The position numbers were made by a program, and so were the translations under genes. A model generated the notes under the pieces. The model saw only the letters and a list, made by a program, of their open reading frames with translations, did not search any database and was not told the DNA's origin. From Cepaea nemoralis (lineage: Eukaryota > Mollusca > Gastropoda > Stylommatophora > Helicidae), in assembly GCA_014155875.1 (NCBI GenBank), contig JACEFZ010014597.1, forward strand, positions 212,001-276,000: a stretch of DNA of 64,000 bases. Direction: 5' to 3'. Below, piece after piece: positions 1,615 to 63,329 of this stretch (its first letter is position 1; every line of letters begins with the position of its first letter).

Positions 1615-1691
1615 CCCCTCTGCTGTGTGTCCACCGTGACGAGGTAGAGGGGCTTGTGCGTCCCAATGACCCCAAGAGCTATGCCGACGGT
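1615..1691 (+). ncRNA. HDV-like self-cleaving ribozyme candidate at the LINE-A 5' end (copy 1)
   Basis: The first 77 nt fold with the HDV topology. P1 is 7 bp (1615-1621 with 1646-1652, CCCCUCU/AGAGGGG). P3 is 3 bp (1633-1635 with 1643-1645, ACC/GGU) closing a 7-nt loop and abutting P1. P4 can form with CUUG 1653-1656 and CAAG 1673-1676. P2 pairs 1622-1626 (GCUGU) with 1687-1691 (ACGGU). HDV-like ribozymes are known at the 5' ends of several LINEs (R2, RTE, L1Tc), where they release the element's 5' end from a longer transcript. Cleavage would fall exactly before nucleotide 1615. No activity is shown here. Confidence 0.65.
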
Positions 1692-1762
1692 AGCACAGCT
1701 ACTGGTAGGGCCACCCATGTCGGACAGGTCAAGGGAGAGGGACCAGACGAAGAGACACACAA

Positions 1763-1996
1763 ACCTGCTGCCTTGTAGGTAGACTGGGGACAGTCAAAGG
1801 CTAGGGAAAGCACCCCAAATACATGCTTGTCGAAATCGGATGTACTGAGCCACAGGCTTGACAAAGCAGTGCAACGTGAAACCTGCTGCCTTGTAGGTAG
1901 ACTGGGGACAGTCAAAGGCTAGGGAAAGCATCCCGAATAAATGCTTGTCGAAATCGGATGTACTGAGCCACAGGCTTGACAAAGCAGTGCAACGTA
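1763..1996 (+). repeat. Tandem duplication (2 x ~117 bp) in the LINE-A 5' UTR
   Basis: The segment from the CTGCCTTGTAGGTAGACTGG region to GTGCAACGT occurs twice in a row here but once in the copy at 40030. The two units differ at only a few positions. The duplicated segment lies just before the ATG and may carry promoter or translation signals; this is inference. Confidence 0.85.
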
Positions 1997-2005
1997 ACTT
2001 AATTC

Positions 2006-5000
2006 ATGATGTCACAAATCAAAATTAATCGATATGGTGCTAATCCCGTGAAGTCCCATCAGGCGGTGATAGTGCCGGGCCCCCTGCCTCGAGGGGGTCC
2101 ACCCATGACTACTGGTGGTCACCTTCCCCTGTGCTGTGGAGTCAAGGCACAGAGGAGTAGGTTAAGAGCTATTGACCAAATACCCCGGACACTCAACATA
2201 CTACAGTGGAATGCCGAAGGAGTTTACAAGAAGAAAGACTCCCTAACACAGCGTCTTCATAAAGATAGAATAGATGTGGCATGCATTCAAGAGACACACC
2301 TCAACGCCAATCACAAATTCTCAGTCAGAGGATATCAGGCCACACGTTTCGACCGCGAAGGACACAAAGGAGGAGTTCTAATACTTACACGAAATACAAT
2401 ACCTTGCAGCGAAGTATCTGTGATCTCTAACAACCAAACGGAAATTATAGGTGTTGATATAATGATAAAGGACGTGAAAATAAGAATCTACAATCTGTAT
2501 AGCCCAGCAGATAAGGACCTTACACTCTCAAACATGAAAATAACTGACACAAACTGCATTATTGTCGGAGACTTTAATAGCCGTTCAGAAAGATGGGGAT
2601 ACCCAGATACTGACAAAAGAGGAGATGAATTGGAGGACTGGGAAATAGACTCAAATCTCCATCTACTCAACAAAGCGGATGACACACCGAGCTTCTACTC
2701 CAGAAGATGGCTTACCACTTCTACTCCAGACTTAGCTTTCTGCACAGGAGACATCCTCCACAAAATCGATCGCCATGTGCTGGACCAATTAGCAGCTAGT
2801 GACCACAGACCAATCAAGCTTGTAATGAATATGGAGTATGTTCCACAGGAGCAAAAGCCCTTGCCCCGCTGGAATTACAAACGAGCAGATTGGGACAGAT
2901 TTGCCTTACCAACAGACAAATAGTGTGAAAACATAAATACACGATATGGCAACATAAAGCAAATGGTGGAAAGTCTAAACAGAGCGATAATACAGGCAGC
3001 CACTGAGTCCATTCCAAGAGGAGCGAGGAAAAATTACAAACCATACTGGACTGAAGAACTACAAAGTTTGGAGGACAAAGTTGAAGATGCCAGGAAGACA
3101 GCAGAGAGAGAACAAACAATTGAAGCGAACTATCTCTCTCAAAGCCATCTCAGCAAAATATAAAAGAACAGTAAATCAAACAACAAGAGATTGTTGGAGG
3201 GAAAAAACAGAAAACCTGAATTTTGACAGGGATGGAAACAAACTATGGAAACTAGTGAAAGCCATGAACAATGAAGGACCTAGAAACAAACAAATAACAA
3301 TTAAACAAGGAAATGCCTTGCTTACAGGCAAAAAGGCTGCAAATGCACTAATGGAACACTATGCAAATGCAAACCACATTGATATTACAACCGAACAGAA
3401 GAAAGCAATCAAAGACAAACAGATACATCATAGAAATACAGAGACAGCAGCAGAATATATGATGGCAAATCTAACAATGGAAGAAATGGAACAGGCAATG
3501 AATACCCTAAAAAAGAAGAAATCACCAGGAAAGGATGGAATCACAAATGAAATGCTAATAGGACTAGGCACCAAGGCAAAGAAGAAACTACTAGCAGTCC
3601 TAAATAACAGCTGGAAGAGAGGAATAGTCCCACAGGCATGGAAGGAAGCTATACTAATACCAGTCCCAAAGAAAGGAAAAGACCTGGAAGAACCAAATGG
3701 CTATCGACCTATCAGTCTACTTAGCTGTGTAGGAAAATTAATGGAACGCATTATCAATGGCAGGCTAACATGGCATCTGGAAGAAAACAAACTCTTAACA
3801 CCACACCAAGCAGGATTCAGAAAATACAGATCCACTGAAGATCAAATAACCTATATAGCTCAGGAAATAGAGGATGCCTTCCAAGAGAAAAAGCACACAC
3901 TAGCAGTCTGGATAGATTTAGAAAAAGCATTTGATAAAGTATGGAAGGAAGGACTGAAAGTAAAACTGCAAAACATGCATGTTTGTGGAAAAATGTATAA
4001 ATGGATCAGCCACTACCTTGAGAACAGAACTGCCAGGACAAAAGTACAAGGACAAACAAGCAAAATGATGCTGCTGGAGCAAGGTGTCCCCCAAGGAGGA
4101 GTTCTTTCACCAACATTATTCCTAGCATATATAAATGACATCACAGAAAATTTTCCAGCCAGAGTACACACATCCTCCTTTGCAGATGACCTAGCCATAT
4201 GGACATCTGAAGAATATATTAGTACAGCTAACAGCAGAATACAGCAAGCCTTATTAGCGCTAGAGGACTGGTCAAAATCATGGCTAGTGAAGATAAGTGA
4301 GGAGAAAACAACATGCACAGTGTTCTCCCTCTCAAATAAAACTCAGCAACCTAAGCTGGTATTGAATGGAAAAATATTGCGCCATGAAGAAAATCCAAAC
4401 TATCTAGGAGTCACCTTTGATCGTCGCCTGACATGGAAGACACAGGTTGAGAAAAATCGAACAAGAGCAAGGCAGAGAATGGCAATCATGAAAAAGCTTG
4501 CTGGTACAACGTGGGGAGCAGATGAGAAAGTTCTCAAGAAGTTATATACTGGACGGGTGAGGCCAGTACTGGAATATGGCATTGCAGCTTGGGCAACAGC
4601 AGCTAAGTCAAACTTTAACAAAATAAGTAGAGTCCAAAACCAAGGAATGCGAATCATAACTGGAAGCCTGAAGACAACGCCTATTAATGAACTAGAAAAG
4701 ATCACTTGTTTACAACCAATGCAGGATAGAAGAGATAGCAGAGCCCAGCAACAAGCAGAAAAATTTAGAAGATTGACAGACCACCCTATGTACAACAGAT
4801 TTAATGGTTTTGGAAAGGGAAGACTGAAGCGTAGCAACTTTGTAGAAACTGCAAAACGAAGGATTAGGGCAGATCCTATACTTAACATATCAACAGTCAA
4901 GCCCATACACAATGCACACAAGTTCCCAGCTTGGAGACAGCAGCAACTGCCTGAGATGATAGAAAACATTCCTGGTATTGAGAAAAAGAACACTCAGCAT

Positions 5001-5858
5001 GAAACCGAAAGAAGAGAAATAACCCTAAACTACATAAAAGAACATTACCCAAGCAGGAATTGGACCCATGCATATACAGATGGATCAGCCAAAAATTCAA
5101 TAGAGAATGGAGGAGGAGGAATTCTCCTAAATTTAAAAAATGGAGTGAAAAAAACACATTCAATGGCAACTGGAAAATTTTCAAGTAACTTCAAAGCGGA
5201 GGTAGAGGCTTTGAAAACTGCAGCAGAAATGCTCCTGATGGAGGAAAATAAAGAGAAGCAAATAGCTATCTTCACAGATGCAAAGTCAGCTGTCTCAATA
5301 CTCAAGAGCAATAACAGCACAGAACTAACTGACCTAAGAGCAGCACTCCATGGTCTATGCCAGAAATCCAAAAAAGTTGTAATACAGTGGATCCCATCAC
5401 ATTGCAGTATACCTGGAAACGAAGAGGCTGACAGACTGGCAAAAGAGGGCGGACGACTACCACAGCCTGACATAGACATAACCTATAATGAGGCAAAGAG
5501 GTTGATAAAAAGCACTTATAGAACCAAATGGGAATCTGAGCATCCAGGCCATCAGAAGGATGATGCATATTACAAACTCGACCGAAGAGAACAAGTAGCA
5601 ATCTTCAGACTCCGCACAGGACATAACAGGCTGAAATACCACTTGTTCAATAAACTAAAGATAGGAGATACCGATGAATGTAATTGTAGAACTGGAAAAA
5701 TGACAGCAAAACATTTGCTGCAGGATTGCCCAACGTATGCAGAACAGAGAAAGATATTTTGGCCCACACCTGCTTCATTTGAGGACAAGCTCTATGGAGA
5801 TATCAACAAGCTCAAGTTGACCGCAGCTTACTTTAACTACATACAGGTTGACATTTAA
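2006..5858 (+). pseudogene. LINE-A polyprotein, copy 1 (AP endonuclease / RT / RNase H), broken
   Basis: Compared with the copy at 40306, this frame has an in-frame TAG at 2921-2923 and one extra base near 3131, so the protein is split after about residue 305. Downstream, 3081-5858 stays open. The endonuclease motifs are QETHL, GDFNSRSERWG and SDHRPI. RT motifs are DLEKAFDKVW, GVPQGGVLSP and SFADDLAIW. RNase H has YTDGSAKN, FTDAKSAV and HCSIPGNEEAD. A C-terminal CNC-x8-H-x4-C motif resembles a zinc knuckle. The intact protein would be about 1283 residues and would nick DNA and prime reverse transcription from its own RNA. The start is the double ATG shared with the other copy. Confidence 0.9.
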
Positions 5859-5878
5859 AGGTGCATGAAGACCCAGAG

Positions 5879-6260
5879 GCATGAAATGGAATATTGCTTG
5901 GATAGCAAATCCATTATGTGGAAAGTCCAAATCGAAAGCTCGCTGTGTGGGCTTCATAAAAGGTGGAAAAGTGTCCTAGTGGCACGAAATGGAATATTGC
6001 TTGGATAGCAAATCCATTACGTGGAAAGTCCGAATCAAAAGCCCATTGTGTGGGCTTCATAAAAGGTGGAAAAGTGTCCTAGTGGCATGAAATGGAATAT
6101 TGCTTGGATAGCAAATCCATTACGTGGAAAGTCCGTATCTAAAGCCCACTGTGTGGACTTCATAAAAGGTGGAAAAGTGTCCTAGTGGCACGAAATGGAA
6201 TATTGCTTGGATAGCAAATCCATTACATGGAAAGTCCGAATCGAAAGCTCACTGTGTGGA
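5879..6260 (+). repeat. Four ~103-bp tandem repeats in the LINE-A 3' UTR
   Basis: Units start at about 5879, 5981, 6084 and 6187, each opening with GGCAYGAAATGGAATATTGC. Other LINE-A copies carry three (40030 copy), four (minus copy at 49734) and two (47260 copy) units, so the array varies in copy number between insertions. Confidence 0.88.
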
Positions 6261-6731
6261 TGTCATCTGCAGACTGCATACTTCTGGTTTCCGGAAGAAC
6301 AGCCTATGGTGAACGGAAGGCCCAATATACGGAAGTGAGGCTAAGCAGCCATGTGCAGGACGTGACGATTCCTTGGGTGAGCCCAGTACCAGAGCGCTAT
6401 GTATCGGCTCTGCAATTATGGAAGCCTCTTTGGATGGCGGGGAATGCCCATGGTCTGCCCATGCCTTCCCTTGAGGGCTGACCAGGATCTTTGGCTGTTC
6501 TATATGGACCAGCTGGGATGGGGGATAACACCACAACAGTGAGAGTCAAACGTCCTAAGAAACCCCCGGGAAGGTTAACCCGGTCAACAAATGCCCGCAG
6601 AAGTCGGATGTGTCGGCCTAACGGCGCAAGAACGCAGCTCTGCTGTAAACAGGCACAACGCAATCACATCCGAAAAAAAAACTCCGGATGAACGAAGATG
6701 AAGAAGAAGAAGAAGAAGAATGCGGAACCCC

Positions 6732-7760: not shown

Positions 7761-9253
7761 CTGTCAAAGTTCAGGTTTTCTGTTTTTTACCTCGAACAAT
7801 CTCTTGTTGTTTGATTTACTGTTCCTCTATATTTTGCTGAGATGGCTTTGAGAGAGATTTTCGCTTCAGTTGTTTGTTCTTTCTCTGCTGTCTTCCTGGC
7901 ATCTTCAACTTTGCCCTCCAAAATGTGTAGTTCTTCAGTCCAGTATGGTTTGTAATTTGTCCTCGCTCCTCTTGGAATAGACTCAGTGGCCGCCTGTAGT
8001 ATTGCTTTGATTAGACTTTCCATCATTTGTTTCATGTTGCCATGTCGTGTATTTGTATTTTCACAATATTTGTCTGTTCGTATGGCAAATCTGTCCCAAT
8101 CAGCTCGTTTGTATTTCCAGCGAGGCAAAGGCTTTTGCTCCTGTGGAACATACTCCATATTCATTACAAGCTTGATTGGACTGTGGTAAGTACCTGCTAA
8201 TTGGTCAAGCACACGGTGATCGATTTTGTGGAGGATGTCCCCTGTGCAGAAAGCTAAGTCTGGAGTAGAAGTGACAAACTATCTTCTAGAGTAGAAGCTT
8301 GGTGTGTCGTCTGCTTTGTTGAGTAGATGGAGATTTGAGTCTATTTCCCAGTCCTCCACTTCATCTTCTCTGTTGTCAGTATCTGAGTATCCTCATCTTT
8401 CTGAACGGCTATTAAAGTCTCCGACAATAATGCAGTTTATGTCAGTTATTTTCATGTTTGAAAGTGTAAGGTCCTTATCTGCCGGGCTTTACAGATTGTA
8501 AATTCTTATTTTCACGTCTTTTGTCATTATATCAACACCTATAATTTCCGTTTGGTTGTCAGAAGTCACAGATACTTCACTGCAAGGTATTGTTTTTCTT
8601 ATAAGTTTTAGAACTCCCCCTTTCTGTCCTTAGCGATCGAACCGTGTGGTCTGATATCCTCTGACCGAGAATCTGCGATTGGCGTTGAGGTGTGTCTCTT
8701 GAAGGCATGCCACATCTATTCTATCTTTATATAGATGATGTATTGAGGGGACTTTGTTGTTAGAAACTCCTTCAGCATTTAACTGTAGTAAGTTGAGAGT
8801 CCAGGGTGTTTGGTCAATAGCTCTTAGCCTACTCCTTTGTGCCTTGACTCCACAGCACAGGGGGAGGTCACCACCAGTAGTAATGGGTGGACCCCCTCGA
8901 GGCAGGGGGCCAGGCACTATCACCGCCTGGTGGGACTTTACGGGATTAGCACCATACTGATTAATTTTAATCTGTGGCATGATGAATTGATTAAGTTACG
9001 TTGCACTGCTTTGTCAAGCTGTGGCTCAGTACATCCGATTTCGACAAGCATTTTTCGGGTGTGCTTTCTCCAACCTTTGACTGTCTCCAGTCTACCCACA
9101 AGGCAGCAGTTGTGTGTGTCTTTTGGTCTGGTTTCTCTCCCTTGAACTGTCCGACATGAGTGACAGTACCAGTAGCTGTGCTACCGTCGGCATAGCTCTT
9201 GGGGGTCATTGGAACACACAAGCCCCTCCACCTGGAACACGGCAGAGGGGCCA
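7761..9253 (-). mobile_element. LINE-A copy 5, 5' part (ribozyme region, 5' UTR, endonuclease)
   Basis: On the minus strand this runs from the LINE-A 5' end (revcomp of GGCAGAGGGG, ending at 9253) through the 5' UTR and the endonuclease frame to the linker before RT. It stops at exactly the point where the fragment at 1-504 takes over. Frames 8980-8630 and 8212-7787 are separated by stops and frameshifts. The 5' 77-nt region keeps the outer P1 arms (CCCCTC/GAGGGG) but has lost the P3 hairpin sequence. The copy is dead. Confidence 0.88.
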
Positions 9254-11113: not shown

Positions 11114-24306
<13,193 letters not shown>

Positions 24307-32723: not shown

Positions 32724-35700
32724 CTGGGGAGAGACAAGAAAACCATTAAATAAAACCATTCAATAAATCTTTGGTTACACTACACCTCACATACATTCAT
32801 CACCATCATTCTGTAAATGTTGGTGGTATGGATAAACACATTTTGTTCCTGTGTGCCTCTTTCTACTGCAGTACTTCACACATAGGGATCTAATGCAGTA
32901 CTTCCCACATAGAAATCTAAAGAAGTACTTCACATATAGGGATCTGCTTGCTTGTGTTCGCTGGCTGTAAACTCCAGCGTGAAGTCCTGTATGTCGGATG
33001 AAGACATCCTGTTGTCCAACGTCAGTGTGATGTCATACAGGATCTGAGGTTTGCTTGAGTATCCGTTGTCCCATGTCTGGCTTATTGGTGTGCAGAATGG
33101 TGGTTCCTCGCCGTACAGGCAGACACTCTCCGACTTCGGAAGAACATAGGGATCTAATCAAGTACTCCACACATAGGGATCTAATCAAGTACCCCACACA
33201 TACGGATCTATATCAAGTACCCCACACATACGGATCTATATCAAGTACCCCACACATACGGATCTATATCAAGTACCCCACACATACGGATCTATATCAA
33301 GTACCCCACACATACGGATCTATATCAAGTACCCCACACATACGGATCTACATCAAGTACTTCACACATAGGGATCTACATCAAGTGCTTCACGCATAGG
33401 GATCTAATGAAGTACCCCACACATAGGGATCTTATCAAGTACTCCACACATAGGGATTTAACCAAGTATTTCACCCATAGGGATCTAACCAAGTACTTCA
33501 CACATAGGGATCTAATGAAGTACTCCACACATAGGGATTTAACCAAGTATTTCACCCATAGGGATCTAACCAAGTACTTCACACATAGGGATCTAATGAA
33601 GTACTCCACACATAGGGATTTAACCAAGTATTTCACCCATAGGGATCTTATCAAGTACTCCACACATAGGGATTTAACCAAGTATTTCACACATAGGGAT
33701 CTAACCAAGTACTTCACACATAGGGATCTAATGAAGTACTCCACACATAGGGATTTAACCAAGTATTTCACCCATAGGGATCTAACCAAGTACTTCACAC
33801 AAAGGGATCTAATGAAGTACTCCACACATAGGGATTTAACCAAGTATTTCACCCATAGGGATCTAACCAAGTACTTCACACATAGGGATCTAATGAAGTA
33901 CTTCACACATAGGGATCTAATGCATTTCTTCACCCATAGGGATCTAATAAAGTACTTCACGTATAGGGATCTAATCAAGTACTTCACACAACACATGTCT
34001 TATTCCCCCCCCCCCCCCCCCCCAATTACAGACTATATAAAAGTCAAGGTAAGCATAGCCAAGAGGTGTCAAGTGTCACAGCGAACCACAGCGTAGTGAG
34101 ATTGAGTGACCAGTTACCTCCCTGACCACCTTAACATTCCAAACATCCAGTACCAGAACAGAACACCAACACAGATCTGGTGTTGTCAGCTGTCAAACAC
34201 TGAATTGACCAATGATGTTAAAACAAAACAGGCCACATATCTTGAATTGACCAATGATATTAAAACAAAACAAGCCACATACCTTGAATTGAACAATGAT
34301 ATTAAAATAAAACAAGCCACATGCCATGAATTGGCCAATGATATTAAAACAAAAGACATACCTTGAATTGACCAATATTAAAATAAAACAAACAACATAT
34401 CTTGAATTGACCAATGATAATACAAAACAAACTACATATCTTGAATTGACCAATGATAATACAAAACAAACTACACTCCTTGAATTGACCAATAATTCAA
34501 AACAAGCCACATACCTTGAATTAACCAATGATAATACACAACCACATACCTTGAATTGACCAATGACATTAACTAAAACAATCCAGTATAGTTAAAACAA
34601 ACCTTGAAACAACCAATGAGAATAATTAAATCAATCCAGTCAATTTGAACTGACTAATAAGATTAACAGAAGCAAAACAAAAGCTACATACCTTGAGCTG
34701 ACCAATGACATTAACTAATACACCGCCATCAATTGTTGGCTGGCAGTCTATCGTTGTTATCTGCCGGAACATGTTATCAATGGGGATTGTCTGTTGAATA
34801 ACGTAACAATCGGCATGTGAGTACAATACAATTTTACAAACAAAAAATTAAAACACATGAGAATTTCACAAAACTATTAAACGTAATATCACGTCTGGAG
34901 CCCATGTGGCTATTGGGATAGTGTGCTAGCCTGCCAAGAAAGTAGTATTCTGGTTAAATCCACAGCACAGGCAGGTTTATTTTTTTCAAACCAGTACATT
35001 TCTGAGGTTGACCCATAGTCCTTAGCAGAACGTCACTCTAATAACAACCCTTGCAGAGGTCAGTTTGGCCAAATGGATAAGAGCCATAATTCTTAAACAT
35101 CTGGTGTTCTGATGCCGAGTTAATGGGTTCAACCCTTACACCGGACAGTTGAACTAATATGTTGACTTCTTGTCTGTGACTTGAGGACGTCAATTACAAC
35201 TAACTATGAAGTCGGAGTGGGTTCGTCTGATGGAGAGGGACACTGGTAGTCGCATCCTTCAGTTCACGAGTGCATTTTTTGGAGACTCCTGGGGGTTGTC
35301 ACTGGAGCTACAGAGTTTGTGCTTTGTGCGATGCTTTCCGCGACTGAGCCATAGGGGACAAAATGAAGTCCACCCTGTCAACTTTTAAGCAACTTCTTTT
35401 AAGGGAAAGCTAAAACACATGCAAAATCAGTTCAGTGCACTACAAGTAGTAGCACATGTATGGACTAAGCTTGAGTTCAAAGCTAGTGCACCAAAAGCAA
35501 AACAAACACCCTTGCCGGTTCCCCCTGCACATGAATATTTACACAGAGTGTCTATAATGCTATAACCACCTTCATGTTGCTCGAATCCTGGCTCTTCTCC
35601 CAGAAACCATGCCTTTCATTAGCGTTCAGTCTAAACCACTGTTACCTTGTCTCAGTTTCCAAGGGATGATTGTTCTTCTTTCGTTCGCTTGAAATGTGTC

Positions 35701-38700: not shown

Positions 38701-41700
38701 GTCCAATTGTCCGGTGTATGGGTTGAACTTCTTACCTTGGCATCAACACACCGGATGTTTAAGAACCTGTGTTCTTATCCATTCGGCCATGTTAACCTCC
38801 ATTTGTATGTTATATCCTTCTGAATTATGCTATTTATTTCTCTCTCTCAGTACCTGTGTTAATTTTTTAAAGATTCGAAGAAAAGTAAAAAATAACTCAT
38901 TTAATCAGGCCAAACAACCCAATATTTCTGTGGTTACTGACCTCACAGCCCATTGTTTCGGTTGCGACTGACCTTAGCCACAGACAAAGTAAATATTTTT
39001 TAAAAACTATGTAACAAAAAATGAGAATAATCAAAAGTAAAGAAAAAGCAGTAAATTCTGAAATGAGCAAGATGTAACAATTTTCGGGAACGTGTGCAAT
39101 AGTACAATAGTTTATATTAAAATTATAATTTGGGGTAGAAAATCCAGGGAGTTCTGTTGCCATGGCACCTGGAAATGTTTACCTTGTGTCTGAATTTTTA
39201 ATTGTTTTCTTAGCCTACATTTGTCAAAAAAATATGTTGACTCCTGAATTATGTTTAATTTTTTCTATCTCAGGGTACCAAATAGCAGAAATTGATGTGT
39301 CAAAACACGTTTGCAACCAAATATTTAATTCTCTTTTAAGGAGATTAACATCTCCACTTAAAGTTGACATAGAAATTGCAATTGCTGTTGAATTATTTTT
39401 CATCAGCCCACTGCTGAAAATTCTTTATTGACAACAAAAATGTAGACAACTATAATTATGATAACATGAATAACACAACACCTACATAGTTCTCTCTCTC
39501 TTTTATCCTTTATCCTCATTTGAAGCACAGGTCCACAAACTCACTGCAATGCAGCAAACCATCATATTGTGTTCTATCGCATGCAGCTTTTTCCCTGTTG
39601 TTCATTTCTGACGCTAGTTTTCTCCTTTGTGTTTATCATCCCCTATTGCTTTTGCCTTGTAAATTTCAGACAAAGGTCTTTCAAGTTCTACTACTATTAC
39701 TATTCTCAAGTTTTCTAAAAATTCTTATTAAGTGGTATAGTGCCCCTAATAATAAATAAATAAAATGGATAAAGTACTGTTTGACATTGTAAGTTTTTAA
39801 GACCTATCAATTATGCAGTCTCACTCATAACTTAAAAATAAATCGAAATCTGTGCTCATTTTAGTAAAATACTAGGTGTACATAAATTCAAATTTATCAC
39901 ACAGGACATGACATAATAATAAAGAACAGATTCCGCTTGCTGTGGATATTTTTGTTCTCCAGAAAATTTTCCAAAACTGGGAAAACAAAACCAATCTAGT
40001 ATCTACAATTAACAAATTAAAACCTGTCACCCCTCTGCCGTGCGTCCACCTTGACGAGGTAGAGGGGCTTGCGCGTTCCAATGACCCCAAGAGCTATGCC
40101 GACGGTAGCACAGCTACTGGTAGGGTCACCCATGTCGGACAGGTCAAGGGAGAGGGACCAGACGAAGTGACGCACAAACCTGCTGCCTTGTGGGTAGACT
40201 GGGGACAATCAAAGGCTAGGGAAAGCATCCCGAAAAGTGCTTGTCGAAATCGGATGTACTGAGCCACAAGCTTGACAAAGAAGTGCAACGTAACTTTATC
40301 ATTTCATGATGCCACAGATGAAAATTAATCGTTATGGTGCTAATCCCGTGAAGTCCCATCAGGCGGTGATAGTGCCGGGCCCCCTGCCTCGAGGGGGTCC
40401 ACCCATGACTACTGGTGGTCACCTTCCCCTGTGCTGTGGAGTCAAGGCACAGAGGAGTAGGTTAAGAGCTATTGACCAAATACCAAGGACACTCAACATA
40501 CTACAGTGGAATGCCGAAGGAGTTTATAACAAGAAAGAATCCCTGACACAGCGTCTTCATAAAGATAGAATAGATGTGGCATGCATTCAAGAGACACACC
40601 TCAATGCCAATCGCAAATTTTCAGTCAGAGGATATCAGGCCACACGTTTCGACCGCGAAGGACATAAAGGAGGAGTTCTAATACTTACACGAAATACAAT
40701 ACCTTGCAGCGAAGTATCTGTGATCTCTGACAACCAAACAGAAATTATAGGTGTTGATATAATGATAAAGGACGTGAAAATAAGAATCTACAATCTGTAT
40801 AGCCCAGCAGATAAGGACCTTACACTCTCAAACATGAAAATAACTGACACAAACTGCATTATTGTCGGAGACTTTAATAGCCGTTCAGAAAGATGGGGAT
40901 ACCCAGATACTGACAAAAGAGGAGATGAATTGGAGGACTGGGAAATAGACTCAAATCTCCATCTACTCAACAAAGCGGATGACACACCGAGCTTCTACTC
41001 CAGAAGATGGCTTACCACTTCTACTCCAGACTTAGCTTTCTGCACAGGAGACATCCTCCACAAAATCGATCGCCATGTGCTGGACCAATTAGCAGGTAGT
41101 GACCACAGACCAATCAAGCTTGTAATGAATATGGAGTATGTTCCACAGGAGCAAAAGCCCTTGCCCCGCTGGAATTACAAACAAGCAGATTGGGACAGAT
41201 TTGCCATACTAACAGACAAATATTGTGAAAACATAAATACACGATATGGCAACATAAAGCAAATGGTGGAAAGTCTAAACAGAGCGATAATACAGACAGC
41301 CACTGAGTCCATTCCTAGAGGAGCGAGGAAAAATTACAAACCATACTGGACTGAAGAACTACAAAGTTTGGAGGACAAAGTTGAAGATGCCAGGAAGACA
41401 GCAGAGAGAGAACAAACAATTGAAGCGAATATCTCTCTCAAAGCCATCTCAGCAAAATATAAAAGAACAGTAAATCAAACAACAAGAGATTGTTGGAGGG
41501 AAAAAACAGAAAACCTGAATTTTGACAGGGATGGAAACAAACTATGGAAACTAGTGAAAGCCATGAACAATGAAGGACCTAGAAACAAACAAATAACAAT
41601 TAAACAAGGAAATGCCTTGCTTACAGGAAAAAAGGCTGCAAATGCACTAATGGAACACTATGCAAATGCAAACCACATTGATATTACAACCGAACAGAAG

Positions 41701-44700
41701 AAAGCAATCAAAGACAAACAGATACATCATAGAAATACAGAGACAGCAGCAGAATATATGATGGCAAATCTAACAATGGAAGAAATGGAACAGGCAATGA
41801 ATACCCTAAAAAAGAAGAAATCACCAGGAAAGGATGGAATCACAAATGAAATGCTAATAGGACTAGGCAACAAGGCAAAAAAGAAACTACTAGCAGTCCT
41901 AAATAACAGCTGGAAGAGAGGAATAGTCCCACAGGCATGGAAGGAAGCTATACTAATACCAGTCCCAAAGAAAGGAAAAGACCTGGAAGAACCAAATGGC
42001 TATCGACCTATCAGTCTACTTAGCTGAGTAGGAAAATTAATGGAACGCATTATCAATGGCAGGCTAACATGGCATCTGGAAGAAAACAAACTCTTAACAT
42101 CACACCAAGCAGGATTCAGAAAGTACAGATCCACTGAAGATCAAATAACCTATATAGCTCAGGAAATAGAGGATGCCTTCCAAGAGAAAAAGCACACACT
42201 AGCAGTCTGGATAGATTTAGAAAAAGCATTTGATAAAGTATGGAAGGAAGGACTGAAAGTAAAACTGCAAAACATGCATGTTTGTGGAAAAATGTATAAA
42301 TGGATCAGCCACTACCTTGAGAACAGAACTGCCAGGACAAAAGTACAAGGACAAACAAGCAAAATGATGCTGCTGGAGCAAGGTGTCCCCCAAGGAGGAG
42401 TTCTTTCACCAACATTATTCCTAGCATATATAAATGACATCACAGAAAATTTTCCAGCCAGAGTACACACATCCTCCTTTGCAGATGACCTAGCCATATG
42501 GACATCTGAAGAATATATTAGTACAGCTAACAGCAGAATACAGCAAGCCTTATTAGCGCTAGAGGACTGGTCAAAATCATGGCTAGTGAAGATAAGTGAG
42601 GAGAAAACAACATGCACAGTGTTCTCCCTCTCAAATAAAACTCAGCAACCTAAGCTGGTATTGAATGGAAAAATATTGCGCCATGAAGAAAATCCAAACT
42701 ATCTAGGAGTCACCTTTGATCGTCGCCTGACATGGAAGACACAGGTTGAGAAAAATCGAACAAGAGCAAGGCAGAGAATGGCAATCATGAAAAGGCTTGC
42801 TGGTACAACGTGGGGAGCAGATGAGAAAGTTCTCAAGAAGTTATATACTGGATGGGTGAGGCCAGTACTGGAATATGGCATTGCAGCTTGGGCAACAGCA
42901 GCTAAGTCAAACTTTAGCAAAATAAGTAGAGTCCAAAACCAAGGAATGCGAATCATAACTGGAAGCCTGAAGACAACGCCTATTAATGAACTAGAAAAGA
43001 TCACTTGTTTACAACCAATGCAGGATAGAAGAGATAGCAGAGCCCAGCAACAAGCAGAAAAATTTAGAAGATTGACAGACCACCCTATGTACAACAGATT
43101 TAATGGTTTTGGAAAGGGAAGACTGAAGCGTAGCAACTTTGTAGAAACTGCAAAACGAAGGATTAGGGCAGATCCTATACTTAACATATCAACAGTCAAG
43201 CCCATACACAATGCACACAACTTCCCAGCTTGGAGACAGCAGCAACTGCCTGAGATGATAGAAAACATTCCTGGTATTGAGAAAAAGAACACTCAGCATG
43301 AAACCGAAAGAAGAGAAATAACCCTAAACTACATAAAAGAACATTACCCAAGCAGGAATTGGACCCATGCATATACAGATGGATCAGCCAAAAATTCAAT
43401 AGAGAATGGAGGAGGAGGAATTCTCCTAAATTTAAAAAATGGAGTGAAAAAAACACATTCAATGGCAACTGGAAAATTTTCAAGTAACTTCAAAGCGGAG
43501 GTAGAGGCTTTGAAAACTGCAGCAGAAATGCTCCTGATGGAGGAAAATAAAGAGAAGCAAATAGCTATCTTCACAGATGCAAAGTCAGCTGTCTCAATAC
43601 TCAAGAGCAATAACAGTACAGAACTAACTGACCTAAGAGCAGCACTCCATGGTCTATGCCAGAAATCCAAAAAAGTTGTAATACAGTGGATCCCATCACA
43701 TTGCAGTATACCTGGAAATGAAGAGGCTGACAGACTAGCAAAAGAGGAAGGACGACTACCACAGCCTGACATAGACATAACCTATAATGAGGCAAAGAGG
43801 TTGATAAAAAGCACTTATAGAACCAAATGGTAATCAGAGCATCCAGGCCATCAGAAGGATGATGCATATTACAAACTTGACCGAAGAGAACAAGTAGCAA
43901 TCTTCAGACTCCGCACAGGACATAACAGGCTGAAATACCACTTGTTCAATAAACTAAAGATAGGAGATACCGATGAATGTAATTGTAGAACTGGAAAAAT
44001 GACAGCAAAACATTTGCTGCAGGATTGCACAACGTATGCAGAACAGAGAAAGATATTTTGGCCCACACCTGCTTCATTTGAGGACAAGCTCTATGGAGAT
44101 ATCAACAAGCTCAAGTTGACCGCAGCTTACTTTAACTGCATACAGGTTGACATTTAAAGGTGCATGAAGACCCAGAGGCATGAAATGGAATATTGCTTGG
44201 ATAGCAAATCCATTACGTGGAAAGTCCGAATCAAAAGCCCATTGTGTGGGCTTCATAAAAGGTGGAAAAGTGTCCTAGTGGCATGAAATGGAATATTGCT
44301 TGGATAGGAAATATATTACGTGGAAAGTCCTAATCAAAAGCCCACTGTGTGGACTTCATAAAAGGTGGAAAAGTGTCCTAGTGGCACGAAATGGAATATT
44401 GCTTGGATAGCAAATCCATTACATGGAAAGTCCGAATCGAAAGCTCACTGTGTGGATGTCATCTGCAGACTGCATACTTCTGGTTTCCGGAAGAACAGCC
44501 TATGGTGAACGGAAGGCCCAATATACGGAAGTGAGGCTAAGCAGCCATGTGCAGGACGTGACGATTCCTTGTGTGAGCCCAGTACCAGAGCGCTATGTAT
44601 CGGCTCTGCAAGTATGGAAGCCTCCTTGGATGGCGGGGAATGCCCATGGTCTGCCCCTGCCTTCCCTTGAGGGCTGACCAGGATCTTTGGCTGTTCTATA

Positions 44701-45960
44701 TGGACCAGCTGGGATGGGGGATAACACCACAACAGTGAGAGTCAAACGTCCTAAGAAACCCCCGGGAAGGTTAACCCGGTCAACAAATGCCCGCAGAAGT
44801 CGGATGTGTCGGCCTAACGGCGCAAGAACGCAGCTCTGCTGTAAACAGGCACAACGCAATCACATCCAAAAAAAAAAACTCCGGATGAACGAAGAAGAAG
44901 AAAACCTGTCAAAGCTTGCTTCCGTTCGCTGGCTGTGAACTCCAGCGCGAAGTCCTGTATGTTGGATGAAGACATCTTGTTGTCCAACGTCAGTGTGATG
45001 TCATACAGGACCTGATGTTTGCGTGAGTATCCGTTGTCCCATGTCTGGCTTATTGGTGTGCAGACGTGGTTCCTCGTCATGCAGGCAGATACTATCAGAC
45101 TTCGGAAGAATCAGCCAGTATAGAACATGCAGGCAGATACTCTCAGACTTCGGAAGAATCAGCCAGTATAGAACTGGCCCTGGTGCCTTGCTTGGAAACA
45201 CCTCTGCGTCCTCTGTCAAAGCTTTAACTTTAATGTATTTCTCACAAGATGTAATGTGGTGTTGTCCATCAAGAATGATAATTCATTTCATCCAGTGGAG
45301 TTGAAAGTTTGCAGCCGTGAGTTCTAAGATGGCTGGTAAAAAATAAAACCTATTTATTTAACAACTATTTTGGCTCTATTTTAATTTTTATTATTTGACA
45401 ATGTGGGCAAAGAATCACGTTCCAGAGGAGAATCTCCTGCAGTGGGTTTTTTTTTTTTTTTTTTGGGGGGGGGGGGGGGGGGGGAGTTCCAGCCTTGTTT
45501 TCCCCACAGCTCTAGCAGTCCTGTTTGCTTCACCAGTGACTACACCCTTGCGTAATGATCATACGCCACGAATTTCGGTCTTTGGCAGCAGTCAGCAGTC
45601 TGGACAAAAGAAAGTGTCCTCATGAATTCCAATTTTTTTTTTTTTAAAGTGAGATCTTTAGAGCGTTGTGGAACGTAATGAGCAGAGCACGTCAAGCGCC
45701 ATGATTACTTCTCACAAGATGTCATGTACGCGCTGATTCAGTGAATTAGTTCAACGAGTCAAACACTAAACACAGTAGTGACGGTTCTCGCTACTACTAC
45801 TAAACACTAAACAGAGAGACACAGAGACAACAATCACGCCGCCCTCGCACCGACTTACATGGTACATGGCCGCCACCTGACCCCTGATGTCTTTGTTGTC
45901 GAAAACAAGATAATACTGCTCAACAAACTGTTTGCCGATAGTGTCAAAGTTAGGATTCAT
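32607..45960 (-). CDS. NUTF2: Nuclear transport factor 2 (NTF2), four exons
   Basis: Joined minus-strand exons 45960-45859, 38334-38263, 34790-34692 and 32723-32607 give 390 nt, i.e. 129 residues plus stop (human 127). Every junction is GT-AG and phase 0. Exon 1 has IGKQFVEQYYLVFDN, matching the F-x-x-x-YY-x-x-FDN signature. Exon 2 has LLTFEGQQFQG, keeping the Glu that contacts Ran in family structures. Exon 3 has QITTIDCQPTIDGGVLVNVI. Exon 4 has GFSQTFVLK and FHDIFRLVIHN. NTF2 is a small dimer that carries Ran-GDP through nuclear pores. The loop before GFSQTF (NNSENDKVL) is two residues longer than in human and differs there. Introns hold LINE-A copy 2, SINEs and two satellites. It runs towards PSMA7, with about 8.3 kb between stops. 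No disabling change is seen. Confidence 0.94.
32868..33990 (+). repeat. 27/28-bp satellite array in NTF2 intron 3
   Basis: About 35 units of ACTTCACACATAGGGATCTA-type monomer. Between about 33166 and 33355 the unit is 28 bp and very uniform (CACACATACGGATCTATATC). From about 33400 it is 27 bp and arranged in 81-bp triplets (CCAAGTATTTC, CCAAGTACTTC, TGAAGTACTCC). The 27-bp period leaves frames open on both strands (33407-34096 +, 33996-33376 -); these are not genes. A SINE-1 interrupts it at 32946-33145. Confidence 0.95.
32946..33145 (-). mobile_element. SINE-1 (5'-truncated) inserted into the satellite
   Basis: The reverse complement of SINE-1 starts at GCTTGCTTGTGTTCGCTGGC. It is flanked by ATAGGGATCT at 32936-32945 and 33146-33155. 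Because the satellite itself contains that string in each unit, the duplication is consistent but not proof. Confidence 0.82.
34006..34023 (+). repeat. Poly-C tract at the satellite edge
   Basis: About 18 C immediately after the last 27-bp unit and the ACACATGTCTTATT junction. Confidence 0.9.
34195..34570 (+). repeat. ~42-bp tandem repeat in NTF2 intron 3
   Basis: About nine units of CTTGAATTGACCAATGATATTAAAACAAAACAAGCCACATAC type (42 bp, some shortened to 33-39), with diverged copies on to ~34720. Frames stay open on both strands because of the period; not coding. Confidence 0.93.
34692..34790 (-). CDS. NUTF2: NTF2 exon 3
   Basis: Acceptor TATTCAACAG, 33 codons TIPIDNMFRQITTIDCQPTI through VIGQLK, donor GTATGT. 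The exon ends at the edge of the 42-bp repeat field. Confidence 0.94.
34895..34985 (+). repeat. tRNA-like SINE head
   Basis: GCCCATGTGGCTATTGGGAT resembles an A-box region and TCTGGTTAAATCC a B box, about 50 bp apart. The body is not recognised elsewhere. Confidence 0.4.
35050..35500 (+). repeat. SINE-2 plus copy with ~150-bp insertion
   Basis: Head with A-like TTTGGCCAAATGG and B-like GGTTCAACCC; body to GGGACACTGGTAG. Then about 150 bp of foreign sequence (35250-35398) before the body resumes at AAGGGAAAGCTAAAACACATGC. Confidence 0.82.
35665..35795 (+). repeat. Dispersed repeat R5 copy
   Basis: Partner of 12900-13035; ends CACTGTTGTTTCTCTAGGCC. Confidence 0.6.
35925..36150 (+). repeat. 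Dispersed repeat R3
   Basis: CTTACAGGACGTTGCAGTCAAC to GCCATGGAGACCGG; the most complete R3 here. It contains TGCTGCCAAATCGGTCGCCG and GTGTTTTGAACGCAGGT. Confidence 0.78.
36151..37410. other. NTF2 intron 2 stretch; one local duplication only
   Basis: No exon or known element. The 48-bp duplication is listed separately. Confidence 0.4.
36553..36648. repeat. 2 x 48-bp exact tandem duplication
   Basis: ATTCTGTCAGATCATCTCTT starts at 36553 and 36601; the two units look identical, so the event is recent. 48 bp is a multiple of 3, so a frame stays open through it, but no family match is seen. Confidence 0.93.
37440..37790. repeat. SINE-3-related inverted duplication (hairpin-forming)
   Basis: Left arm 37480-37597 and right arm 37671-37790 are reverse complements at about 80%. 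Shared: TCTAGTGCAT.CTCTAGTC, TAATTCTTACCCCTA, GTGCCAAA, TATTTATGAACT. The spacer holds the tRNA-like head with GGTTCAAATCCC. Confidence 0.8.
37795..38170 (+). mobile_element. RTE-1 3'-end fragment with 3 x 32-bp repeats
   Basis: A degenerate frame ends in LVNFMEKSXGRQRNKHMDG-like sequence and a CTTGGTGATTGTATGAGATG block repeated at about 38051, 38083 and 38115, then ATGATGATGAAT. This is the terminal block of RTE-1 seen at 28395 and 63890. Confidence 0.68.
38263..38334 (-). CDS. NUTF2: NTF2 exon 2 (72 nt)
   Basis: Acceptor TTACACTTTCCAG, 24 codons PSDALLTFEGQQFQGLEAIA then EKMK, donor GTAAGC. It is too small to stand out as an ORF but matches the family segment exactly in place. Confidence 0.94.
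38519..38805 (-). repeat. SINE-2, minus copy
   Basis: From CCGCTCGCTTTGAACACAAG to CATTCGGCCATGTTAACCTC; nearly full length. Confidence 0.85.
38810..40018. other. NTF2 intron 1 stretch; nothing supported
   Basis: A 60-codon frame after a possible acceptor at 39273 was considered and rejected. No family repeats seen. Confidence 0.4.
40030..40106 (+). ncRNA. HDV-like ribozyme candidate at the LINE-A 5' end (copy 2)
   Basis: P1 40030-40036 with 40061-40067. P3 ACC 40048-40050 with GGU 40058-40060 around a 7-nt loop. P4 CUUG 40068-40071 with CAAG 40088-40091. P2 GCCGU 40037-40041 with ACGGU 40102-40106. Again exactly 77 nt. The P2 strand differs from copy 1 (GCUGU) but still pairs through G-U wobbles, and the L3 loop differs (UUGACGA against GUGACGA) without affecting stems. 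Confidence 0.65.
40306..44157 (+). pseudogene. LINE-A polyprotein, copy 2 (two stops)
   Basis: 3852 nt, i.e. 1283 residues if read through. A TGA at 42025-42027 replaces a Cys codon just inside the RT domain, and a TAA at 43831-43833 replaces a Glu codon after RNase H. There are no frameshifts. Residues about 64-290 form the AP endonuclease (QETHL, GDFNSRSERWG, SDHRPI) and about 500-790 the RT (FADD at 725-728). About 1020-1150 form RNase H, and a C-x-C...H...C motif lies near 1224-1241. Only two substitutions stop it, so this copy died recently. Confidence 0.92.
44177..44480 (+). repeat. Three ~103-bp 3' UTR repeats (LINE-A copy 2)
   Basis: Units start near 44177, 44279 and 44382; same unit as at 5879. 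Confidence 0.88.
44912..45212 (-). mobile_element. SINE-1 inserted at the LINE-A target duplication
   Basis: A minus copy from GCTTGCTTCCGTTCGCTGGC to the 5' end GACGCAGAGGTG (complement near 45200). CTGTCAAAGCTT at 44906-44917 and 45213-45224 is its 12-bp duplication and overlaps the LINE-A duplication. An internal ~47-bp segment (CATGCAGGCAGATACT..AGTATAGAA, 45078-45172) is duplicated. Confidence 0.85.
45447..45484 (+). repeat. T-run followed by G-run
   Basis: About 16 T joined directly to about 20 G in NTF2 intron 1; a likely sequencing and replication slippage site. Confidence 0.9.
45859..45960 (-). CDS. NUTF2: NTF2 exon 1
   Basis: 34 codons, MNPNFDTIGKQFVEQYYLVF then DNKDIRGQVAAMYH, donor GTAAGT. 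The ATG is the only one upstream in frame and aligns with the family start. Confidence 0.94.
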
Positions 45961-58067: not shown

Positions 58068-58289
58068 ATGATGTGATGATAGTATGTACACCACCTCATA
58101 TCACATCATCCATTTCGTATAATGACATTATACATTTTTATTCTTGAAAAATGTACTGAAATACTGTAACATGTACTGAACTACTGTAAAATAAACAGGT
58201 CTATATTATAATTATGTCTTGGTTGTTGAATTTTTTTTTTTAGTGTTTACGGTGTATATAGTTGTCATGTGATGAGAGACTGAAGGGTA

Positions 58290-60075
58290 AAAATGTTGGT
58301 CAAGTAATAAAATTTGTTAGCCAAAAGGGAAAAATTTTGACTACATTTCAACCATATTTATAAAACACTCAACCAATCTTATGAAAAGTAGGCAAATTTG
58401 TTAACCAAATGTGAAAAAGTTAGCCGAATTTCAAACCAAACTTATAAAAATCTCAGTCAAAACATGAAAAGTAGGAAAATTTGTTAAATAACGTGAAAAC
58501 TTGTGAAAAGTGGGAAATTTTATTGTCCAGATGTGAAAAGTTTGACCACATTTCACCCATTCTTATGAAAAGTAGGAAACTTTGTTAACAAAATCGCAAA
58601 AAAAAAAAAAAAAAAAAATCTTGGCCAAATAAGAAAATGTGTTAACCAAATGTGAAAAGGTTAGCCAAATTTCAAACCAAACTTATAAAAATCTCAGTCA
58701 AACATATGAAAAGTAGGAAAATTTGTCAATCAAAGTGAAACATTTTGGTCACATTTCAACCAAACTTATAAAAATCTCAGTCAAACGCATGAAAAGTAGG
58801 AACATTTGTTAACCAAATGTGAAAAAGTTAGCCGAATGTCAAACCAAACTTATAAACAGCTCAGTGAAATACATGAAAAGTAGGAAAATTTGTTAACCAA
58901 TCATTAAAAGTTTGGTCAACGTTCACCCCAACTTATGACAAGTGGGAAAGTTTGTTGTCCAGAGGGGAAAAGTTTGACCAAATTTCACCCAAACTTATGA
59001 AAAGTAGGAAACTTTGTTAACAAAATGGCAAAAAAGCTTGGCCTAGTAAGAAAATGTGTTAACCAAATGTGAAAATGTTAGCCAAATTTCAAACCAAACT
59101 TATAGAAATCTCAGTCAAACATATGAAAAGTAGGAAAATTTGTCAATCAAAGTGAAACATTTTGGTCACATTTCAACCAAACTTATAGAAATCTCAGTCA
59201 AACGCATGAAAAGTAGGAACATTTGTTAACCAAATGTGAAAAAGTTAGCCGAATTTCAAACCAAACTTATAAACAGCTCAGTCAAACACATGTAAAGTAG
59301 GAAAATTTGTTAACCAATCATGAAAAGTTTGGTCAACTTTCACCCCAACTTATGAAAAGTGTGAAATTTTGTTGTCCAGAGGGGAAAAGTTTGACCAAAT
59401 TTCACCCAAACTTATGAAAAGTAGGAAATTTTGTTAATCAAATGTGAAAAGGTTAGCCGAATTTCAAACCAAACTTATAAAAAGCTCAGTCAAACATATG
59501 AAAAGTAGGAAATATTTGTTAACCAAACGTGAAAAGTTTGGCCAACTGTCACCCAAACTTATGAAAAGAGAGAGATTTTATTGTCCAGCGGTGAAATGTT
59601 TGACCAAATTTCACCCAGTAGGAAACTTTGTTAACCAAATGGCAAAAATCTAGGCTACTTAAGAAAATTTGTTAATCAGAGGGGGGAAATTTTGGCTACA
59701 TTTCATTCAGACTTATAAAAAAAACTCACCCTATCTTATGAAAAGTAGGAACATTTGTTTACCAAATGTGAAAAGATTAGCCGAATTTCAAACCAAACTT
59801 ATAAAAATCTCAGTCAAACATATGAAAAGTAGGAAAAATTTGTTAACCAAACATGAAAAGTTTGGCCAACTGTCACCCAAACTTATGAAATGTAGGAAAC
59901 TTTGTTAACCAAATGGTAAAAACCTTGGCCAAGTAAGAAAATGTGTTAACCAAAGGTGAAAAGTTTTGGACAAGTTTGACCAAATTTCAAACAAAACTCA
60001 TAAAAACAAGGAAACTTTGTTAACCAAATGTTAAAAGTTTGACCAAAGTTCAGCGAAACTTATAAGATATTCGCC
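58290..60075 (+). repeat. A/T-rich minisatellite, ~60-bp and ~85-bp units
   Basis: About 1.8 kb of units built around CTTATGAAAAGTAGGAAA, TTTGTTAACCAAATGTGAAA and CAAATTTCACCCAAA. Two unit types alternate (one with AAAATCTCAGTCAAAC, one with GTTTGGTCAACTTTCACCCC), giving a higher-order period of several hundred bp. It lies directly after the small gene. Confidence 0.92.
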
Positions 60076-61085: not shown

Positions 61086-63329
61086 CAGTGGTTCTCAACC
61101 TTTTTTGGCCCGTTCCCCCCTTCACCATATTTTCAGAACGTCATTCCCCCCCCCCCCCCCCCCCTCCATTTTCCCAAAATTGTCAGCCTCAAAAGGTGCA
61201 TTAAAAATAACGTGCCTATAATAGTGAAAATACCTATTTTCTTACATAGTTGTACATAACCTTCACATGTAAAAACACATTTTATTGTGTAGTTTTCTAC
61301 AGTTAATAGCAAATGAATATGCTGATGGATATTAAAACTTAAATAGAAACATTTTTACATTCGCAATATTTTATTAAAACACCACATTAATCATACTACA
61401 ATAAACAAACAGTTAAAACGTCAAAGAATTGTAGCTTAATATACGACACCAGGATGCCAGAAAATTGTGCTTCATCAAACAAAACGCTCATTACAAAACC
61501 TGGATATTGTAGATTCGTAATTTAAATGAAAATTGTAATCAATGAGAACACTGTGATTGTTTTTCCCGCAGCAATTCTGAAATACGCGGAGGAGTGCTTG
61601 AAAGGGCACAACGGAGATCGTTTTCAACATCTAATCTGTTGCGTCTTTTCGTTTTAATTTCTAGCAGAGCTGAAAAGCCTGACTCACAAAGATATGTTGA
61701 CGCAAATGGAAGCAATGCACGGATTGCTTTTTCTGCCACTTTTGGGTATGAACCGCACATTAAAGGCCAAAATTCCGTGATTGGTTTCTCACTGAACACA
61801 TCCCTTGCCCCCGAATCATTTTTCAGCTCCAGAAATTCATCTTGACAATCATCAGAAACTTTTTCAACTGATAATTTGAATGGGTTTCGCACCAAATCCA
61901 GCTCATCATCACTAAGTTCAGGAAAATATCGCTCAAATTCATTTTCTAGCGCTGTCAAATGCTGCACAATTTCATTTTTTGCAAATTGTGGAAGTACTTG
62001 GTCTTTACCATCAACAACGAGAACGGATGACAGCTTCTCAAACATTGCAACATTTGTCATATTGACCTTTCTTTTCCAGTTTTCCAGCTTGCTCATAAAA
62101 GCTCTCAAGGCATCCACAAATTGTATGATATTTGTATTCCTTCCTTGCATCTGAAGATTGAGTTTATTCAACTGCTCAAAAATATCAACTAAATAGGCAA
62201 GGCGCATGATCCATTCCTCATCATCCAGCCAGGCGAAAAAGTCCATCTTACCCTGAACTTCAAAAAATAATTTGAGCTCGTCTCTCAGCTCATATACTCG
62301 CGCAGTTACATTTCCTCTTGACAGCCATCGAACATTTGTGTGGAAAAGAAGCAAATGGTGGCCTGCATCCATGTCAACGCATAACTGCTTAAAAAGCCGT
62401 GAGTTGAGAGCTCCTCCTTTGATAAAATTCACTATCTGAACGGTTTGATCCAAAACCTTCCCCAAAGGAGCTGGAAGTGTTTTGGAGGCCAGTGCTTGAC
62501 GATGGATCATGCAATGAATGCCTTTCACTTTTGGGGCACGTTTCTTCACACTAACTTGAAATCCTGATTTGGTCCCCAACATAGCTGGTGCTCCATCTGT
62601 ACAGCACCCACACATATTATCCCATGAAAGATTTTGTGATTCAAGGAAAGATGAAACCTTTTCCAAAATATCAGAAGCCATGGTAGTTGTTTCAAGAGGA
62701 GAACAAAAAAGAAGTTCTTCTTTAAATGATCCTGAATGCACATACCTTGCAAACACTATCAACTGAGAACACGATGCCACATCAGTCGATTCATCAATTT
62801 GAATTGAATAGAGCCCAAATGCTGCAGACTTGATCTCTTGCACAACTTGATCCTTGATGTCATTGGCCATATCGCTGATCCTCCTTTGAACAGTGTCGTT
62901 TGATAGTGAAACCGCTGCAAGTTTTTTCTCTGATTCATTTCCCAACACAATTTCCACCATCTTGAGACAACAAGGTTTGATCAAAGATTCCCAGATTGTA
63001 TGTGGTTTTTTCTGCTTCGCTATCTCCAGTGCTACGACATAGGAAGCTTCAGTAACCTTTTGGTTTGTTTCTTGGAATACCCCTGTTAAATCCAGTCTCA
63101 TCCTTTTGACAGCATTCCCAAGACGTTCAAAATAGGTTTTGTCCTTGTCCTTGTATTGAGGATGAACATTCAACAAATGATTCCTCAACTGTGTCGGTTT
63201 CATAGAATCATTTGACAAACTTTTACTACAAATAACACACTGAGGTCGTTCTTCTCCGTTGATGACGATATTTGTGAATCCATAATTCAAATAAGACAGG
63301 TCATACTTTCGTTTCTTGACACTCATCAT
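61086..63329 (-). mobile_element. hAT (Charlie-like) DNA transposon with intact transposase
   Basis: The 3' terminal inverted repeat CAGTGGTTCTCAACC starts at 61086, inside the RTE fragment, next to the candidate 8-bp target GTTTAGAC (61078-61085). The transposase gene fills most of the rest. I find no matching inverted repeat or GTTTAGAC between 63330 and 64000, so the 5' end is lost, displaced by later repeats, or outside the window. A C-run (61147-61163) lies in the subterminal region. Confidence 0.85.
61539..63329 (-). CDS. hAT transposase, BED-finger, 596 aa, intact
   Basis: Uninterrupted frame. Residues about 30-58 form a BED zinc finger (PQCVICSKSLSNDS...QLRNHLLNVH). The RNase H-like core follows, with IQIDESTDVAS, then CTDGAPAMLG and GIHCMIHRQALASK, and the C-terminal hAT dimerisation region with LPFASTYLCESGFSAL. 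Overall it resembles the vertebrate ZBED5/SCAND3/ZMYM6-type hAT-derived proteins. A transposase would excise and insert hAT DNA, making 8-bp duplications such as that at 19831. An unbroken frame means recent activity or retention as a host gene; sequence alone does not decide. An upstream non-coding exon is possible. Confidence 0.9.
   Translation of the reverse strand: MMSVKKRKYDLSYLNYGFTNIVINGEERPQCVICSKSLSNDSMKPTQLRNHLLNVHPQYKDKDKTYFERLGNAVKRMRLDLTGVFQETNQKVTEASYVVALEIAKQKKPHTIWESLIKPCCLKMVEIVLGNESEKKLAAVSLSNDTVQRRISDMANDIKDQVVQEIKSAAFGLYSIQIDESTDVASCSQLIVFARYVHSGSFKEELLFCSPLETTTMASDILEKVSSFLESQNLSWDNMCGCCTDGAPAMLGTKSGFQVSVKKRAPKVKGIHCMIHRQALASKTLPAPLGKVLDQTVQIVNFIKGGALNSRLFKQLCVDMDAGHHLLLFHTNVRWLSRGNVTARVYELRDELKLFFEVQGKMDFFAWLDDEEWIMRLAYLVDIFEQLNKLNLQMQGRNTNIIQFVDALRAFMSKLENWKRKVNMTNVAMFEKLSSVLVVDGKDQVLPQFAKNEIVQHLTALENEFERYFPELSDDELDLVRNPFKLSVEKVSDDCQDEFLELKNDSGARDVFSEKPITEFWPLMCGSYPKVAEKAIRALLPFASTYLCESGFSALLEIKTKRRNRLDVENDLRCALSSTPPRISELLREKQSQCSH

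Follow-up and report, generated by a model that had tools for sequence, protein, structure and literature searches.

A putative HDV-like ribozyme of the L1Tc/ingi type at the RNA 5′ end of LINE-A in Cepaea nemoralis

Copies of LINE-A in Cepaea nemoralis begin at the same base although the DNA that precedes them is unrelated, which raises the question what sets the 5′ end of this element. The window analysed here, a stretch of 64,000 nucleotides, carries several copies, and a preliminary description had read the first 77 nt of the element as an HDV-like ribozyme. That a LINE should start with such a ribozyme is favored by the exact ends, the sequence core and a match to L1Tc Pr77, whereas the P2 helix as it was then drawn is probably wrong. 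We regard it as fairly probable that about 85 nt at the 5′ end of the LINE-A RNA fold into a self-cleaving, HDV-like ribozyme related in type to that of L1Tc/ingi (Pr77).

LINE-A and its 5′ boundary

Two full-length copies are found on the plus strand of the window. Copy 1 (1615-6718) extends from CCCCTCTG to a (GAA)n tail and is flanked by target-site duplications AATGCGGAA (1606-1614 and 6719-6727), and copy 2 (40030-44902) is flanked by AACCTGTCA (40021-40029 and 44903-44911). As had been stated, these two full-length copies start with the 77-nt segments 1615-1691 and 40030-40106. A third LINE-A 5′ end had been overlooked: copy 3 (7761-9250, minus strand) is older and incomplete on its 3′ side, its 5′ end is 9250, and its terminal part (9212-9250) has lost L3 together with the greater part of the 5′ strand of P3. 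The window also contains a 596-aa ORF with a hAT dimerisation domain (61539-63329, minus strand) and tandem arrays at 33126-34083 and 58289-60008, with periods of 27-28 nt and ca. 83-84 nt.

The protein region of copy 1 (2006-5858, plus strand; two ORFs, 2006-2923 and 3081-5858) encodes endonuclease, reverse transcriptase (RT) and RNase H domains, and the LINE-A ORF is disrupted in copies 1 and 2. A sequence in the protein collection (P0001) is 99% identical to the LINE-A protein and consists of a single ORF of 1282 amino acids. Among the best 120 of 1404 relatives, the next closest shows 80% identity and those from named organisms are gastropods (Batillaria attramentaria, 49%; Littorina saxatilis, 45%). 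Nimb elements have two ORFs. According to the accessible text of a molluscan survey, the I-superfamily clades across molluscs are Nimb and Ingi only, one octopus group excepted (PMC10294476), and the available part of a gastropod study describes Ingi as numerous in Batillaria and the three other gastropods examined (PMC11203168). The single ORF with RNase H, taken together with the molluscan clade survey, therefore points to LINE-A being an Ingi element, that is, a member of the clade of the trypanosomatid L1Tc/ingi elements.

Some further features of the family were seen along the way. About 118 nt of the 5′ UTR are tandemly duplicated in copy 1 (about 1769-1995), and copies 2 and 3 have no such duplication. 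The 5′ UTR at 1945-1971 reads LSKSDVLSH in one frame, and some relatives of ca. 50% identity have N-terminal extensions with, as judged by eye, LPKTDALG or similar; this block may be conserved. Elements of ca. 150 nt that start at or near CCGGGAAGGTTAACCCGG, contain a hairpin and end in the LINE-A 3′ tail occur at 15020-15212 and in five other loci (L024, L026, L027, L035, L037). Some of them are flanked by target-site duplications, and they may be either SINE-like units or LINE-A copies truncated at one constant position.

A 38-nt LINE-A segment downstream of the putative ribozyme has 9,819 matches with at most three mismatches (4,855 + 4,964) in the 3.47 Gb of genome searched, and the reversed control pattern has none. 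From the list for this pattern 50 copies were fetched, all drawn from the exact matches that head it; with four copies taken by coordinates this gave 54, of which one (L053) was dropped for an indel, and copy 3 was left out of the count. The element starts with CCCCTCTG, and CCCC opens 51 of the 53 copies compared. In copy 2 the duplication AACCTGTCA stops directly before CCCC, as do the duplications of copies 4 (L025:7779, plus strand) and 5 (L026:651, minus strand), which lie beside the window; in copy 1 the flank reads AATGCGGAA(CCCC), so the assignment of the four Cs is ambiguous there. The earlier claim of exact 5′ ends is borne out by these three boundaries and by the common CCCC start. 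Upstream flanks differ among the compared copies except in one identical pair (L078 and L086), and the insertions are therefore not all independent. With G at position −1 in 3/53 copies and 17% G in the flanks, there is no sign of a cap-copied G.

A fixed start is also what an internal promoter of the L1Tc kind would be expected to give. If the 5′ end were a promoter only, Pol II would start at C1, positions +24 to +29 with GACG(A/T)G would act as a DPE, and the pairings described below would be incidental. The corresponding CGTG of L1Tc is a DPE that transcription from +1 cannot do without (PMC4748587). Such a promoter, however, requires no 7-bp P1 abutting P3, no P1.1 and no in-register P2, and the rarity of G at −1 also speaks against it, so that we consider this explanation unlikely. 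Since the 77 nt of L1Tc are reported, in the portions of the literature available, as both promoter and ribozyme, a promoter at this place would not exclude a ribozyme.

The P1/P3/L3 core and a competing hairpin

The sequence core of the candidate in copy 1 consists of the P1 5′ strand CCCCUCU (1615-1621, plus strand), with the predicted cleavage site directly 5′ of 1615, P3 ACC/GGU (1633-1635 and 1643-1645) enclosing L3 GUGACGA (1636-1642), and the P1 3′ strand AGAGGGG (1646-1652). Copies 1 and 2 both show the helices described before, a P1 of 7 bp and a P3 of 3 bp with a 7-nt loop, and in both P3 abuts P1 (a 0-nt junction); all lengths are identical in the two copies. L3 contains ACG in both. 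A P1 of 7 bp that begins at the exact end of the element agrees with the 6-7 bp of the HDV-like class, as does the sequence of a 3-bp P3 whose 3′ strand abuts P1 and which carries L3. In an Rfam search, run without a known LINE ribozyme as positive control, no match to the HDV family was obtained.

For a descriptor of P1, P3 and L3, composed after the candidate sequences had been seen, the 64-kb window contains no matches other than copies 1 and 2 (both matched once with 7 bp and once with 6 bp), whereas 40 shuffled windows gave 0.425 matches on average and never more than 2. Across 264 kb it found four LINE-A 5′ ends and one unrelated place. Six more places came from a further pattern: in five (L095-L099) P1 is not in place, and the sixth (L094) is an old LINE-A relative. 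P1 and P3 are fully intact in 42 of the 53 compared copies.

Copies 1 and 2 represent different subfamilies. Copy 1 belongs to subfamily I and copy 2 (candidate at 40030-40114, plus strand) to the majority subfamily II. TTG at positions 10, 14 and 22 is a subfamily haplotype present in 7/53 copies; the first L3 position is G instead of U in subfamily I, L3 of subfamily II being UUGACGA. To test P2, older relatives were sought with CCC, CCACC and ACGTGGT held constant in the search pattern. This gave 153 matches (control, 5), among which were a third subfamily (CCCCTCTGATGTGTCTCCACCTTGACGTGGT) and single copies of greater age. Sixteen older copies were chosen from about the first 100 of these 153 matches, and the resulting alignment has 18 distinct rows (copies 1 and 2, L094, L100-L102 and L104-L115). 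The search patterns prescribe C1-C3, P3 and some of L3, so that the constancy of these positions in the older rows proves nothing.

The same nucleotides can also form a simpler structure, which the preliminary description had missed. The 5′ end might be an ordinary stable stem-loop that acts in RNA stability, in translation or as a reverse-transcription stop; in subfamilies I and II it would have 10 bp (1-10/29-38) and an inner GUC/GAC stem. For each of the six 5′ ends folded, a nested hairpin is the most stable structure (−23.4 kcal/mol in subfamily II vs −11.0 kcal/mol for P1+P3). Its lead over P1+P3 is 4 to 12 kcal/mol, a comparison that leaves out the energy of P2. It rivals P3, whereas P1 is common to both structures; the HDV fold would have to recoup the hairpin's energy lead via P2 and tertiary contacts. 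Against a plain stem-loop, which we judge quite improbable, stand the loss of the 10-bp extension in older copies (9-30 paired in 7/18 rows), the variation of the inner stem between lineages, and the top rank of the HDV-type P2 register among the 50 scanned (see below). To say that subfamily III rules out any nested hairpin would be too strong, since only the 10-bp extension is broken there and other inner stems replace it.

P2, P4 and the candidate catalytic C

The helix first proposed for P2 (8-12/73-77) fared less well than the core. In copy 1 an equally good helix arose in 1610 of 2000 shuffles (80%), and in copy 2 it is not the best helix up to position 77, the better one being itself reached by 868 of 2000 shuffles. 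The alignment allows the outer pairs of this helix in a minority of rows, 8-77 in 6/17 and 9-76 in 7/18. The observation that GCCGU and GCUGU can both pair with ACGGU holds insofar as a wobble is possible, yet the two variants differ by a C-to-U transition in a CpG, which belongs to the subfamily haplotype and is not a compensation. In favor of the helix, 67.4% of its cells are paired and its covariation score was reached by only 42 of 500 shuffles, but slid versions still pair 57.8% and 60.7% of cells. P2 as first drawn is nevertheless probably wrong.

An alternative P2 would pair positions 8-18 (1622-1632, plus strand) with 75-85 (1689-1699, plus strand). This register (i+j=93), which was spotted by eye before the scan and thus chosen after the sequences had been seen, has 147 of 197 cells paired in the 18 rows and is the top of the 50 registers scanned; as much pairing arose in 4 of 5000 column permutations, and in 4 of 500 with the choice of register left free. 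Paired cells amount to 74.6%, vs 33-44% in slid versions. The strong stretches are 17-18/75-76, 11-14/79-82 and 8/85, mismatches are frequent at 15-16/77-78 and 9-10/83-84, and the pair 12-81 is UA in 16/18 and CG in 2/18 rows. Covariation of the revised P2 lies within the range of shuffles (cells paired, 40/500; score, 67/500; two-sided changes, 409/500), and here the helix drawn first scores equal or better (42/500 vs 67/500); the corresponding values for the whole model are 16, 172 and 348 of 500. The revised P2 probably fits better, an assignment based on in-register complementarity and on its position beside P3 and not on covariation. It would lie directly before P3, as does P2 in known HDV-like ribozymes. 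With the revised P2, the domain would measure about 85 nt instead of the 77 nt claimed, so that the candidate in copy 1 spans 1615-1699 (plus strand).

The full register leaves no spacer between P1 and P2. One ribozyme is inactive without a P1-P2 spacer, according to the accessible part of PMC4908430, and the outermost pairs of the revised P2 may therefore need to stay open. Three other pairings were considered in this region. A P2 candidate 14-17/72-75 was set aside; GCUGUGU/GCACAGC of copy 1, taken as a separate helix 4 nt from P3, coincides with the outer pairs of register 8-18/75-85; and a downstream hairpin (74-80/84-90) is broken in many older rows and was rejected as a conserved part.

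The remaining elements of the class can be placed as follows. For P1.1 there is one possible pair, between G24 in L3 (1638) and C39 (1653, plus strand), which is standard in 16/18 rows. The P4 region (1656-1684, plus strand) would be closed by 1656-1658/1682-1684, i.e. by the pairs 42-70, 43-69 and 44-68, which hold in 94% of cells; C at position 42, a variant present in 4/53 LINE-A copies, would disrupt one of them. J4/2 would then be CGAC (C71, G72, A73, C74; 1685-1688, plus strand), with C71 (1685) as the proposed catalytic C. Position 71, located at a CpG, is C in 15/18 and T in 3/18 rows, and its placement hinges on the P4/P2 model. In HDV-like ribozymes the catalytic C is the first position of J4/2 and the last position is free, as described in the available part of PMC10879173, and the proposed J4/2 with candidate C71 fits this placement.

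In the proposed pseudoknotted fold P1 would thus be formed by 1-7/32-38, P2 by 8-18/75-85 directly before P3 (19-21/29-31), P1.1 by the single pair G24-C39 and P4 by a helix closed by 42-44/68-70, followed by J4/2 (71-74) with the presumed catalytic C71 at its head. Such a ribozyme would cut read-through transcripts directly 5′ of C1, and we propose that every new insertion would therefore begin at the same base and include the ribozyme. Cleavage would explain the exact 5′ ends after unrelated flanks in a family with 9,819 5′-region matches.

The peptide encoded in frame at this place had been explained as a translation of the ribozyme core. This is consistent with the frame, which is open in copies 2 and 3 and runs into a TAG in copy 1. 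The frame across the candidate reads PKSYADGSTATG... (1551-1778 and 39912-40262). A protein search with its residues 40-116 (E up to 10) gave one match, P0121, a 71-aa sequence that is near-identical to the frame and has a different flank; this search therefore gives no sign of a conserved protein.

Relation to known LINE ribozymes

Similar 5′ ends were also looked for in other sequence collections. LINE-type RTs of at most 33% identity are encoded by several of 13 loci from bacterial assemblies (L011-L023), those of bivalve gill symbionts among them, and are probably host contamination. A relaxed descriptor found no convincing 5′ ribozyme in the stretches upstream of four LINE-like loci from these assemblies (L011-L014) or of a second LINE family in L024. 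The phage DNA search gave no match, the plasmid protein search gave distant matches that are mostly group II intron RTs (20 matches listed), and viral contigs contained RTs of just 23-27% identity and no match to a ribozyme pattern. In the literature searched, with most subscription papers outside it, no such ribozyme was described in molluscan Ingi LINEs, and the word "ribozyme" is absent from the accessible text of the gastropod LINE paper (PMC11203168).

L1Tc, named before as a precedent, is an apt one. In the accessible text of PMC4748587, Pr77 of L1Tc consists of CCCTGGCTCAGCCGG (1-15), CCACC (16-20), TCAA (21-24) and CGTG (25-28). LINE-A of subfamily II has CCACC at 17-21, followed by TTGA and CGAG, and is identical to this L1Tc core at 10 of 13 positions; 20 of 20,000 shuffles matched as well when a shift of up to 3 nt in either direction was allowed. 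Copy 1 of subfamily I is identical at 9 of 13. Compared with the CCACC-N4-CGTG core of the published segment (Pr77 +16 to +28), LINE-A has CCACC at +17 and either CGAG (subfamilies I and II) or CGTG (subfamily III).

A cleaving LINE-A 5′ end would extend the trypanosomatid type of ribozyme to a mollusc host and would make common ancestry testable. A ribozyme with the core CCACC-N3-ACG-N-GGU might have been inherited vertically with Ingi-type LINEs since before the split of kinetoplastids and animals, P1 and P2 having drifted and LINE-A representing the animal branch; we put this forward tentatively, as a possible but rather doubtful history.

Like L1TcRz, the Pr77-hallmark ribozyme of the L1Tc/ingi elements of Trypanosoma and Leishmania, the candidate occupies the first ca. 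77-85 nt of a LINE with endonuclease, RT and RNase H domains; its P1 strand begins at C1 and is rich in C, and its CCACC is followed by N3-ACG. The two differ in host, in the letters of P1 and P2, in the position of CCACC, which comes one nucleotide later in LINE-A, and in the CGAG of subfamilies I and II. L1TcRz cleaves, where tested, at C1, and for LINE-A the cleavage site is predicted. R2 elements insert into 28S genes and are not known to encode RNase H. The R2-clade ribozymes likewise form the start of a non-LTR element, whose 5′ end is set by self-cleavage (PMC3774820), and the LINE-A candidate is located at the same place. From what is available of PMC4035085, several trypanosomatid relatives were cleaved in vitro at C1 and others were inactive, and the trypanosomatid type differs from R2/HDV in the orientation of the P1 GC pairs and in P1.1. 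With Cs as its first letters, LINE-A appears to conform to the trypanosomatid type rather than to R2/HDV as these are distinguished there.
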